This document shows, piece after piece, positions 30,238 through 36,410 of a stretch of DNA of 64,000 nucleotides. Source of the stretch: Thermococcus paralvinellae (GTDB lineage Archaea; Methanobacteriota_B; Thermococci; Thermococcales; Thermococcaceae); the NCBI RefSeq assembly GCF_000517445.1, contig NZ_CP006965.1, forward strand, positions 124,001 to 188,000. The letters are read 5' to 3'. The notes under the pieces were generated by a model. It saw nothing but the letters and a program-made list of their open reading frames with translations, ran no database searches and had not been told where the DNA came from. How positions within the stretch are numbered: the first letter of the stretch is position 1; each line of letters begins with the position of its first letter. Position numbers and translations under genes: made by a program.

Positions 30238-31185
30238 TCAAACCTTAATGCCACCCATAACCAAGGCTAAAGCTGCCTTTTGGGCATGTAATCTGTTCTC
30301 TGCCTGATCCCAGACAACGCTGTTTGGTGAATCAATTACATCATCGGTAACCTCTTCACCCCTATGGGCGGGGAGACAGTGCATAAAGATGTAGTCAGGC
30401 TTTGCGTGCTTGACTAACTCCTTGTTGACTTGGAATGGCTTGAATATCTTCCTTCTCATCTCAGCCTCAGCTTCCTGCCCCATTGAAGCCCATACATCTG
30501 TATAAATAACATCTGCATCTTTCACAGCTTTAACCGGGTCGTGTAAGAGTTCAAAGCTTCCACCACTTTCTGCTGCATTCTTTTCAGCCCACTTGATAAC
30601 CTTCTCATCTGGCTCGTATCCTTCTGGTGTAGCAACCACAACATTTGCGCCGAGCTTCGTTCCGGCTATCATGAGTGAGTGAGCAACGTTGTTTCCATCG
30701 CCAACATAAACAACCTTAACTCCTTGTATTCTGCCTTTCTTTTCCCAGATTGTCATGTAGTCTGCTAAAGCTTGACAGGGATGGGAGAAGTCACTTAAAC
30801 CGTTAATCACAGGAACACTTGCATATTTTGCCAAATCTTCAACATCTTTGTGGGCATAAACTCTCGCCATAATTCCATCAACGTATCTGCTCAATACACG
30901 AGCAGTGTCCGCTATTGTCTCTCCTCTCCTTAGCTGAAGGTCTTGGGCGTTCAAATATAGAGCATAACCCCCAAGCTGGTACATTCCAACTTCAAAGCTA
31001 ATCCTTGTTCTTGTTGAGGGCTTTTGGAAAATCATTGCCAAAGTTTTGCCTTCTAAAACGCGGTGAGGTTTTCCTATTTTTTGCCAAATCTTCATCATCT
31101 TTGCTGTTTCGAGAATTGTTTCGATTTCTTCTCTTGTAAAGTCTTGTAAGCAGAGAATATCCCTCCCAGCTAAGCTAACTACCAT
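30238..31185 (-). CDS. argF: Ornithine carbamoyltransferase
   Basis: Forms citrulline from carbamoyl phosphate and ornithine, or supports arginine catabolism in reverse. The 315-residue enzyme shows the carbamoyl-phosphate motif STRTRISFE, HPCQALADYMT, and the ornithine-binding HCLPAHRGEEV. Its conserved blocks match P. furiosus OTC as I remember it. ATG 31185 follows GGTGAT; the TTG two codons earlier overlaps the ribosome site. A TATA-like TTAATAAAATAA is at about 31206-31217. Confidence 0.95.
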   Translation of the reverse strand: MVVSLAGRDILCLQDFTREEIETILETAKMMKIWQKIGKPHRVLEGKTLAMIFQKPSTRTRISFEVGMYQLGGYALYLNAQDLQLRRGETIADTARVLSRYVDGIMARVYAHKDVEDLAKYASVPVINGLSDFSHPCQALADYMTIWEKKGRIQGVKVVYVGDGNNVAHSLMIAGTKLGANVVVATPEGYEPDEKVIKWAEKNAAESGGSFELLHDPVKAVKDADVIYTDVWASMGQEAEAEMRRKIFKPFQVNKELVKHAKPDYIFMHCLPAHRGEEVTDDVIDSPNSVVWDQAENRLHAQKAALALVMGGIKV

Positions 31186-31315
31186 TGGCAATCACCAAAA
31201 AGTGGTTATTTTATTAAGTTAATAATGGTTTCGCCAAAAAATATGCTAATAACTCGCAAAATTTTCTGATACCACCTGCTAAACCTGTATTTATGTCTTG
31301 AGTTTGTGATCAAGG

Positions 31316-31845
31316 TTAGTGATTCATTTTCCTTGCACTGGCTATTAAAATCATTATCAATGCGGAGACTATTGCTGGTAGAGGAATTGGTGCTCTTGTG
31401 ATGCTTGAGAAGTGCCTGGTGCATTGTAGGTGATAGTGAGTTGCATATCTATACTCTCTGGATTTACTTCCCCAAATGGATCATTATAATCGCTAACGCT
31501 CATATAGAGGTTTAATGTACTACCTTCAATCTTTACCCTATTTTTGTCTAAATTAAAACTACCCTCTTGTGGAGGATCTGTTTCTGTAAAATGAGGGGAT
31601 ACACTGCCAATCTTACTTAAGTAGCTGAAGCTGGAATCATAATAAAATGTTGCCATATCATCCCCAATAGCTTTTGCTTTTAGTGTTATAGTCTCAATGT
31701 TACTTACGTTGATATATTGGGGTAAGACAAATGTTACCTTATAATGACTAGCGAAGGGATTATTACTTTGTATCTCAGTCAAGGTGTAATTGTCTACAGT
31801 TATCATCTCCTGTCCAGCATATACTGTATGGACTTCAATCAGCAT
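31316..31845 (-). pseudogene. Candidate archaeosortase substrate 1, tail in a shifted frame
   Basis: ATG 31845 opens a 158-codon frame of beta-rich, N-glycosylation-prone sequence (NVSN, DNYT) that stops at 31369. Adding one A in the CAAGAG run near 31395 restores a frame reading RAPIPLPAIVSALIMIL and ending in basic residues (SARKMNH, TAA at 31316). This is a motif, a hydrophobic helix and a short basic end: the three-part layout of an archaeosortase/exosortase sorting signal. The restored protein has about 175 residues. No signal peptide is visible at the N-terminus, so the 5' end may also be damaged or mis-set. It is divergent from the archaeosortase next door. Confidence 0.6.
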
Positions 31846-31972
31846 GATAATGTTGTAGCCTTGATAATGCTTAGTTTAGTATTTCCCTGACTTACTGTTC
31901 CCGGTTATTTATGACCTTGCCCTTTTGAAGGTTGTACAAATCCCAATTTGCATTGACAAAGAATGGAAAAGG

Positions 31973-31981
31973 ATTATAAAA
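31973..31981 (+). promoter_or_regulatory. TATA box suggesting a leaderless archaeosortase transcript
   Basis: ATTATAAAA is centred at 31977. Twenty-six bases on is the ATG at 32003, so the mRNA may begin at the start codon. This decides between ATG 32003 and the earlier TTG 31925. Confidence 0.4.
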
Positions 31982-32002
31982 TGTGCTAGTGAACAATGGA
32001 GC

Positions 32003-32482
32003 ATGGAGGCTCATAAAAAATTAATAATTTTGAGACTCTTTCTTCTATTGGGTCTAACTTTTGGTATGTATGTATTGTTTAGACCTATCGAGCAATTTTT
32101 AGTTAGACCTGTCGCTGAAGTTTCTGCATTAGTTTTATCCTTATTGGGGTATACTGTAGAGGTCATAAATACAACACTTATTATTAAAAATATTGTCAAC
32201 ATTGAAATTATTGGAGCATGTACTCCATTATTGCCCTTTTTGCTTCTTGTGTCTTATGTACTTATTTTTGGAGAAGGTGATGTTAAAGATGCCCTTTTCC
32301 TTTGTATGGGGTTTGTGTTTTTGTTTATTGTAGATGTATTCAGGATTGTAGGAATTGTTGTTTTGGCAACAAATGGAATTTCTGTGGATAGTGCTCATCA
32401 AATTGTTAGTTATTTGTTGATACCATTGGCATATGTGCCACTTCTTTGGGTTTACAACCAGTTCAAAAAGAATGTCCCTTGA
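32003..32482 (+). CDS. Archaeosortase/exosortase-family transpeptidase
   Basis: A compact membrane enzyme of 159 residues, or 185 if it starts at TTG 31925. About five hydrophobic segments are visible. The exosortase triad appears in order: Cys in EIIGACTPLLPF, Arg in DVFRIVGIVV and His in DSAHQIVSYLL. Such enzymes cut C-terminal tripartite signals and attach surface proteins to a membrane lipid. Candidate substrates lie on both sides, each with an APIP-type tail. It is shorter than many family members, whose longer N-termini carry extra helices. I recall a PIP-CTERM class but cannot verify the match. Confidence 0.82.
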   Translation: MEAHKKLIILRLFLLLGLTFGMYVLFRPIEQFLVRPVAEVSALVLSLLGYTVEVINTTLIIKNIVNIEIIGACTPLLPFLLLVSYVLIFGEGDVKDALFLCMGFVFLFIVDVFRIVGIVVLATNGISVDSAHQIVSYLLIPLAYVPLLWVYNQFKKNVP

Positions 32483-32522
32483 CATGTAGGTAATAAACCC
32501 AAAACTTATAATTGCTTAATTT

Positions 32523-32912
32523 TTGGTAGGATACCAAATTATTCAGAATGACTTTATCATTGAGGCTTGTGATGTTGATAAGAAGAATTACATCCCAGTT
32601 TATGCTAATGATGTGTTTATAGGATACCTGGAGAGAGGTTACAACAACAGATGGTCGACAACATTAATATCAATAAGAGACAAGGGAACCATATCGCAAA
32701 TATTGGAAAAGGATCCTCATACAATTACAATGAGAGTAGTTCCAGACCGTAGTGATTGGGTTAAAATTGGAGATGCCAAGTTAGTTTTGGAGTATCGTAC
32801 GTTAGGTAACAAGGAGGAAGAAGAAACAAAAACAAGTGCCCCAATTCCGGTACCTGTGTATCTTGTGGTTCTAGCTATACTATTGTACTTTATGTGCAAG
32901 CAGAGAGAATGA
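32523..32912 (+). CDS. Candidate archaeosortase substrate 2 (APIPVP-anchor protein)
   Basis: The frame opens after a TAA at 32517-32519; TTG 32523 is the first possible start, 40 bases behind the archaeosortase. The soluble part is beta-rich and ends DAKLVLEYR. It is followed by an acidic/Thr linker, then SAPIPVPVYLVVLAILLY and a basic end CKQRE. The tail mirrors that of the divergent substrate gene. No signal peptide is present, so the 5' end is either truncated or the true start was lost. Probably in one transcript with the archaeosortase. Confidence 0.65.
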   Translation: MVGYQIIQNDFIIEACDVDKKNYIPVYANDVFIGYLERGYNNRWSTTLISIRDKGTISQILEKDPHTITMRVVPDRSDWVKIGDAKLVLEYRTLGNKEEEETKTSAPIPVPVYLVVLAILLYFMCKQRE

Positions 32913-32987
32913 TTTTAATATACTCTTTGTCAAAATTTTATCAAAACCCTAATAAATTCTTGCTTTCCTTATTTGATGGGGATTCTG

Positions 32988-33722
32988 ATGGATAGGATAA
33001 AAGTTAGGCTTATCAATTACACGCCAAGACCTTTGGAAACAGTAACATGGGCTGCACTAATATCCTATTGGGATAAATGGGAAAGTGAAGCCTTTGAAAG
33101 AACAACAAGGGCTGATGTAGAGAAACACTTGCCAAAAGTTCTCTCATATGGGCATGAAAGCATCTTGGAGCATGCAGTTTTCACATTTGCTATTGAAGGA
33201 ATTAGCAGGGTTGCGAGTCATCAGCTTGTAAGACACAGAATAGCAAGCTATACACAACAGTCTCATAGGTATATAAAGCTAAACCCTCAAGATGTTGAGG
33301 AAACGTTTTTAATCCCAGAGAGCATCAAAGAAAAGCCAGAGTTCTATGAGAAGTGGAAGAAACTCATGAGGGAAGCAATAGAACTATATGAAAAGACCTA
33401 TGAGGATGGTGTTCATCAAGAAGATGCCCGCTACATTCTCCCCCAGGCCGTTAGAACTAAAATTGTTGTAACCATGAACTTGAGAGAACTTAAACACTTT
33501 TTTGGGCTTAGAACTTGTGAGAGGGCTCAGTGGGAAATTAGGGAGGTTGCTTGGAAAATGTTGGAAGAAATAGCAAAGGTTGATGAGTTGAGGCCAATAA
33601 TTAAATGGGCAAGACTAGGCCCGAGATGCATTCAGTTTGGCTATTGTCCAGAGAAGGAATTGATGCCAGAAGGTTGCTTTAAGAGAACAAGAAAGAAGTG
33701 GAGTAAGATGACTGAAATTTAG
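32988..33722 (+). CDS. thyX: Flavin-dependent thymidylate synthase
   Basis: Makes dTMP from dUMP using FAD, methylenetetrahydrofolate-type carbon and NAD(P)H. The 244-residue protein has the ThyX signature RHRIASYTQQSHR and the N-terminal ESILEHAVFTF. ATG 32988 follows GGGGAT; two earlier in-frame starts at 32973 and 32976 lie upstream of that site. Its TAG overlaps the convergent HIT gene's stop by four bases. Confidence 0.94.
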   Translation: MDRIKVRLINYTPRPLETVTWAALISYWDKWESEAFERTTRADVEKHLPKVLSYGHESILEHAVFTFAIEGISRVASHQLVRHRIASYTQQSHRYIKLNPQDVEETFLIPESIKEKPEFYEKWKKLMREAIELYEKTYEDGVHQEDARYILPQAVRTKIVVTMNLRELKHFFGLRTCERAQWEIREVAWKMLEEIAKVDELRPIIKWARLGPRCIQFGYCPEKELMPEGCFKRTRKKWSKMTEI

Positions 33723-35595: not shown

Positions 35596-36318
35596 TTACT
35601 TTGTATTTCCTGAGTCACCACGACATGGCATAATCAGTGGCGGCGCTTTTTCACCATTGTAGATGGCACATCCTTTAATTTTAACCGTTTTGTTGCCATA
35701 ATTCACATGGAAAGTGATTCTATCTTTAAAAATTTCTTTGCGATGTTCTTTTATTATTTCAGAGGACACTATCTTTCCATGTGTGCCTTTATTTTTCAAG
35801 CAATTTATGATTAAAGTTCCATTGTCAAAGTTTATTTCCTGCACAGTTGAGTTCTCGGGTGGAAGAATTATTGCTATGGTTTCAATGTTAAGGGGAGAAG
35901 CGTGATAGATGTATCGTGGCGGTACTGTTGGCTGTCCGAGACCTCTCACTACATTGCAATACTTAATGGTTCCATTGGAAATCACAACAACCTGAACTTT
36001 GTCCTCATATCCATTTGGGAATTTAACAAGCTGCCTTATTTTGGTGAGCTTTAGAGAATTGCTCCCTGAAAGTTGCTCAAATTTAAAAAGTATACCAGTA
36101 TTTTTGAGTTCGTAACTTGTGTACTTCACTTCGCCCGGGTAGTATAGAAAGACAGTAAAGTAAGCTGTCTTGTATGTTTCATTACGAGAAACTGAAACTG
36201 AGAAAGTTTGAGAAGATTGGGATGTTAGAGGAGGACTCTTAGAGTTATTTTCCCCTATGCATCCTACTACAGCAGTTATGACAATTAAGAATACAATGAC
36301 TTTTCTCGTAAGCTTCAT
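35596..36318 (-). CDS. Secreted lipoprotein of unknown function
   Basis: A 240-residue protein with a signal peptide ending in the lipobox-like VVGC (lipid attachment expected on that cysteine), a Ser/Thr-rich linker and a beta-rich body with several N-glycosylation sequons (NGT, NKT, NST). Two pairs of cysteines follow in the body. No family is recognised. ATG 36318 is used; the ribosome site is weak and a TATA-like TTTATTTTG lies only a short way upstream. It is convergent with apgM. Confidence 0.75.
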   Translation of the reverse strand: MKLTRKVIVFLIVITAVVGCIGENNSKSPPLTSQSSQTFSVSVSRNETYKTAYFTVFLYYPGEVKYTSYELKNTGILFKFEQLSGSNSLKLTKIRQLVKFPNGYEDKVQVVVISNGTIKYCNVVRGLGQPTVPPRYIYHASPLNIETIAIILPPENSTVQEINFDNGTLIINCLKNKGTHGKIVSSEIIKEHRKEIFKDRITFHVNYGNKTVKIKGCAIYNGEKAPPLIMPCRGDSGNTK

Positions 36319-36410
36319 TTTTAACACAAAATAAACTTAGAAAGCCCGATCATAATAAATTTTAGGGTTGAGATATTACAATGAGGTTAAACAAAAGATA
36401 GAAAAAAGCA

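Follow-up and report, generated by a model that had tools for sequence, protein, structure and literature searches.

The archaeosortase encoded in the window, by which we mean the whole 64,000-nucleotide stretch of Thermococcus paralvinellae DNA analysed here, is probably active or was active until recently, and probably now serves cargo proteins encoded elsewhere in the genome, the candidate cargos encoded beside it being relics. The window corresponds to G000:C1:124001-188000, the source genome being a single contig of 1,957,742 bases from the Thermococcaceae. Even with its local cargos lost, the system need not be dead, because the enzyme is intact and two intact candidate cargos are found at remote loci. 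On this reading a sortase can persist after the neighboring cargo genes have been lost.

The island lies at the argF-thyX junction and is composed, in order, of a candidate substrate on the minus strand, the archaeosortase on the plus strand, and a second candidate substrate on the plus strand, such that the two substrate genes are divergent. The left flank is a gene that we take by recognition to be argF (ornithine carbamoyltransferase; 30238-31191, minus strand), and the right flank is presumably thyX, also named by recognition (32973-33722, plus strand). The same order of argF, sortase, substrate, and thyX was found in G004, a MAG (Thermococcus sp. isolate GB_MAG1_027), and the argF-thyX gap is empty and approximately 195 bp long in four sister genomes (G001, G003, G005, and G006). 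A search with the window sortase identified six loci of the group in 5 of 94 Thermococcaceae genomes (G000, G004, G039, G057, and G067), and a contig search with two sortases as queries found G004 as the sole relative. The sequence TTATAAAA at 31972..31979, readable on both strands and located approximately 25-30 bases before the sortase ATG, is a possible archaeal TATA box. An RNA-family search found none. A mobile-element origin of the sortase was rejected, with 0 relatives in plasmids, phages, and viral contigs; the ends of the two substrate genes form a 21-nt inverted repeat, which falls at a different place in each tail and was taken as chance. Near the island, a 243-aa ORF (window 35596-36327, minus strand) has a lipoprotein-like start (MLKMKLTRKVIVFLIVITAVVGCIGENN).

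The enzyme itself is as originally predicted, a minimal archaeosortase with a Cys/Arg/His triad. Its reading frame is open for 185 codons from a TTG at 31925 to the stop at 32482; the alignment of its relatives starts at the ATG at 32003, from which an intact protein of 159 aa is encoded (32003..32482, plus strand), with at least four membrane stretches based on hydropathy. The triad consists of Cys73 in GACTPLLPF (32219-32221), Arg114 in DVFRIVG (32342-32344), and His132 in SAHQIV (32396-32398), all on the plus strand, and among the six group members the Cys and His are conserved in all six and the Arg in five. The protein scored 29.1 bits against Pfam EpsH (PF09721), for which the cut-off is 25.7, and 27.1 bits against the generic NCBIfam archaeosortase signature TIGR04178, for which the cut-off is 23. 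Based on these scores and the triad, the window protein belongs to the exosortase/archaeosortase superfamily. The G+C content of the sortase gene is 33% compared to 40% for the window, with 2% of 480-base windows being equally low. In one of the G067 sortases (L010:7908-8360, minus strand) the catalytic Arg is replaced by Lys (FDGLKVAVMF), and two intact AP[IV]P-tailed cargos adjoin this sortase.

The pairing of archaeosortase and APIP tail, for which a search of other Thermococcales had been proposed, proved to be conserved. Absence of such neighbors from related genomes, which would have counted against the original prediction, was not observed. Neighbors with an AP[IV]P tail were found for 5 of the 6 group sortases, the sixth (G067 contig 62) having a neighbor with a diverged APLS tail (SAPLSW), and at least one neighbor with a tripartite tail lies beside every one of the six. 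The neighbor tails are SAPIPLP in G004, SAPIPP and SAPIPM in G057, and NAPIPA and NAPVPM on contig 10 of G067, and the usual sorting signal can be described as (S/N/K/R)-A-P-(I/V)-P in front of a membrane helix and a basic end. At L011:8659-9991 (plus strand) in G039, three tandem paralogous substrates with the tails KASLPS, KAPVPL, and KAPIPA are found at one sortase, and these represent a natural series of signal variants. When 542 ORFs of at least 80 aa from 17 stretches were examined, 94 had a hydrophobic C-terminus and 12 of those an AP[IVL] tail. The pairing is not attributable to chance, because nine of these 12 tails adjoin group sortases; the remaining three belong to the two remote candidates and to an unrelated membrane protein (APIRYL). 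The tail alignment was built from the islands themselves, and the co-occurrence therefore rests mostly on the islands. A first tail profile, made from seven island tails only, was run on seven genomes, and a second, made from nine tails, was run on 94 genomes. A profile lacking any G039 row still matched the G039 tail beside its sortase (E 1.3e-4), and in the sortase-free sisters G001 and G006 the tail profile found nothing below E 0.3 (best 0.36). Among plus-strand matches to the other APIP words in the genome, none in the right orientation was a protein tail.

The two divergent APIP-tailed candidate substrates that were predicted to flank the sortase were both located. The right ORF (32523..32912, plus strand) consists of a third repeat and an APIPVP-helix-basic tail (32838..32909, plus strand), the latter recognized by the tail alignment and profile, and ends in SAPIPVPVYLVVLAILLYFMCKQRE. 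At the same site in G004/L109 the counterpart is intact, with 426 aa, a signal peptide, three repeats, and a SAPIPLP tail (SAPIPLPVYLMLLAVILYYIHQRKE). The window ORF shares 80% identity with the final third of the G004 protein, with homology starting near 32536, and the signal peptide and two repeats (approximately 300 codons) are missing. We read the right ORF as a relic because the homology covers only the 3' third and because there is no signal peptide in any frame upstream of 32536. Structure prediction for the repeat gave a beta fold (pLDDT 89), and its closest matches among solved structures include many jelly rolls that bind sugars, such as the EclA C-terminal domain, CBM35, and BcsB (TM about 0.55-0.62, best E 0.0046). 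The model makes it plausible that the cargo repeat binds glycans at the surface.

The left candidate consists of a body of 158 codons (31369..31845, minus strand), the ORF of which runs out in an unrelated frame due to a frameshift just before the tail. The APIPLP-helix-basic tail with its stop codon (31316..31402, minus strand; ITRAPIPLPAIVSALIMILIASARKMNH), which was recovered by the tail profile that it had itself helped to train, lies in the -1 frame relative to the body, and its stop at 31316 is the coordinate given when a tail hidden behind a frameshift was first proposed. The frames of body and tail meet near 31400-31440. As had also been noted, neither substrate has a visible signal peptide: the best 12-residue hydropathy in the N-terminal regions of the pair of relics was 0.65 and 0.78, compared to 2.7-3.3 for nine intact relatives, all intact neighbors having strong signal peptides. 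Signal peptides were sought after frame correction, and this search came up empty in every frame for both substrates. Since the left gene is frameshifted, lacks a signal peptide, and has no upstream start codon in any frame able to supply one, we read it as a relic as well. Its body has 0 relatives in the other 93 Thermococcaceae genomes; the structure model is all-beta with moderate confidence (pLDDT 73), and its structural matches are of low TM-score. A visual match suggested that the left body and the right repeat are homologous, but this was not supported by hhalign (probability 0.2%) or by HMMER (E 0.02 against a single target); a beta fold was predicted for each of them.

Two remote proteins are the most likely present-day substrates of the sortase, as judged from their sequences. 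One is an intact protein of 463 aa with a signal peptide and a SAPINP tail (G000:863154-864545, minus strand; MKKVIVVILVLSIVISS...SAPINPGVIILTAFLVLFIHRKR), and the other is an intact protein of 222 aa with a signal peptide and a RAPIPN tail (G000:1341197-1341865, plus strand; MYTLIMIPLLITLQ...RAPIPNGAIALSLIIIITAITLMGDKK), both found with the tail profile. In the 94-genome tail scan the 222-aa protein was the best match outside the training set (E 0.0016), and the 463-aa protein matched at its exact C-terminus (E 0.059). The remote tails are weak when taken singly, with E values of 0.02-0.06 per genome for profiles that exclude them and 0.0016 at best; we give them weight on account of their position and surroundings, which were assessed by eye once the search had been run. 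Outside the islands, the motif, helix, basic end, and signal peptide occur together in only these two proteins among the 94 genomes, the remaining weak tail matches being internal, in short dubious ORFs, or without the motif. Neither protein has relatives in the other 93 genomes, and the 222-aa protein has no basic residues before its signal helix. The original prediction had left it undecided whether the island is functional, decaying, or dependent on an unusual route to the membrane. The unusual route can be set aside given that the local substrates are relics, the right one being what is left (the 3' third) of a longer secreted gene for which a relative has an intact copy, and the intact enzyme and the two intact remote candidates favor function.

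An alternative is that the whole island is decaying, with the sortase as its last intact piece and the remote proteins being membrane proteins with an ordinary C-terminal anchor whose likeness to the sorting signal is a matter of chance. We consider this unlikely, although it accounts for the broken state of both local neighbors, for the singly weak remote tails, and for the patchy distribution (5 of 94 genomes). It does not sit well with a sortase ORF and triad that are both intact, nor with the restriction of the full set of tail features and signal peptide to two proteins of one sortase-bearing genome.

The two other alternatives concern the state of the local genes. That errors of sequencing or assembly account for the frameshift and the truncation, both local cargos really being intact, is highly improbable even though the left body is still modeled as an all-beta domain and both tails are well preserved. 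This explanation needs three separate errors, because the left shift, the missing left start and signal peptide, and the right truncation would each have to be accounted for; the left shift does not lie in a homopolymer, the left gene has no suitable start or signal peptide in any frame, and the right gene is short by approximately 300 codons. Programmed frameshifting of the left gene has the least probability of all. The tail and body frames do overlap over tens of codons, but there is no slippery heptamer at the junction; the only two X-XXY-YYZ words (31887 and 31476) are both in frame 0 phase 0 and lie away from the junction, and the signal peptide would be absent either way. We favor an intact enzyme that serves cargos encoded elsewhere.

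Divergence between the window and G004 is uneven across the locus. Agreement at fourfold sites was 29/36 for repeat 3 and the tail, 10/32 for the sortase, 81/122 for argF, and 41/68 for thyX. The sortase is more diverged than the repeat-tail end (p = 6e-5) and than the flanks (p = 7e-4), and the repeat-tail end differs only marginally from the flanks (p = 0.05 compared to thyX, 0.15 compared to argF). Replacement of the sortase or exchange of the gene end would explain this mosaic divergence, the counts being small. We also raise, as a tentative possibility that we would lean against, a Thermococcales-specific class that has an AP[IV]P signal of its own and in which lineages exchange the tail-coding gene ends separately from the sortase; the enzyme would then persist to provide anchoring, and its cargos would be swapped, disappear from the home site, and be replaced at other loci.

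Most of what has been worked out about C-terminal anchoring by archaeosortases comes from Haloferax. Substrates of Haloferax ArtA carry PGF, a hydrophobic stretch, and basic residues, and the enzyme needs Cys173, Arg214, and Arg253 and works with attachment of lipid to the new C-terminus (PMC7157517, PMC9263693). The Thermococcales group resembles the Haloferax volcanii ArtA/PGF-CTERM system in its tripartite C-terminal signal and its polytopic Cys enzyme with a conserved Arg (PMC7157517, PMC9263693), but has AP[IV]P rather than PGF, a much smaller enzyme, and His as the third residue where ArtA has Arg253; the window protein has no significant score to the ArtA model. By analogy with ArtA, a substrate would be exported by means of an N-terminal signal peptide and then retained in the membrane through its C-terminal helix; the sortase Cys, with Arg and His, would cut close to AP[IV]P, after which a membrane lipid would receive the new C-terminus, giving a surface-anchored protein. 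We infer that export, tail cleavage, and lipid anchoring follow this course in the Thermococcales group, and the window sortase would act in trans on at least two intact remote cargos, those of 463 aa and 222 aa.

Among the curated sortase models, ArtE (TIGR04124) scored best for 5 of the 6 group members. ArtE and PIP-CTERM (TIGR04173) are said to belong together, as reportedly proposed by Haft and colleagues in 2012, and the likeness to this pair extends to a small enzyme of approximately 155 aa and a signal with a P-I/V-P stretch. However, the six members score 37-58 bits (52.9 for the window protein), short of the ArtE cut-off of 95 bits, which was passed in 0 of 94 genomes. The PIP-CTERM signal class mentioned in the original prediction does exist as a model, but TIGR04173 had no match at E 0.001 in any of the five sortase-bearing genomes, Methanocaldococcus jannaschii scoring over the cut-off as a control. 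No paper devoted to a Thermococcales archaeosortase was found in the literature searched. From these sequence comparisons the window group looks like a Thermococcales archaeosortase variant not covered by current models, and a real branch of a known kind of system. Current models label the enzyme only, and generically, and miss the tails and cargos. The group offers a small enzyme, a defined tail motif, a short cargo list, and a host family with laboratory genetics.

ArtF (TIGR04293) belongs to the same superfamily and occurs in the same host family, in other Thermococcaceae, but it is encoded in a conserved operon and lacks AP[IV]P tails, and the window protein was unmatched by the ArtF model (cut-off 150 bits) at E up to 1. 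A search with the ArtE model found 15 loci in 13 genomes, and the nine beyond the AP[IV]P group share another operon. These nine Thermococcaceae loci (L052-L060) encode a second archaeosortase type, the one scanned (L053) being ArtF with a score of 245.5 bits. Their operon includes a secreted protein of approximately 240 aa that ends in VPEFPFLxPLxxxLxxxIG, possibly a PEF-like signal without the usual helix-plus-basic end.
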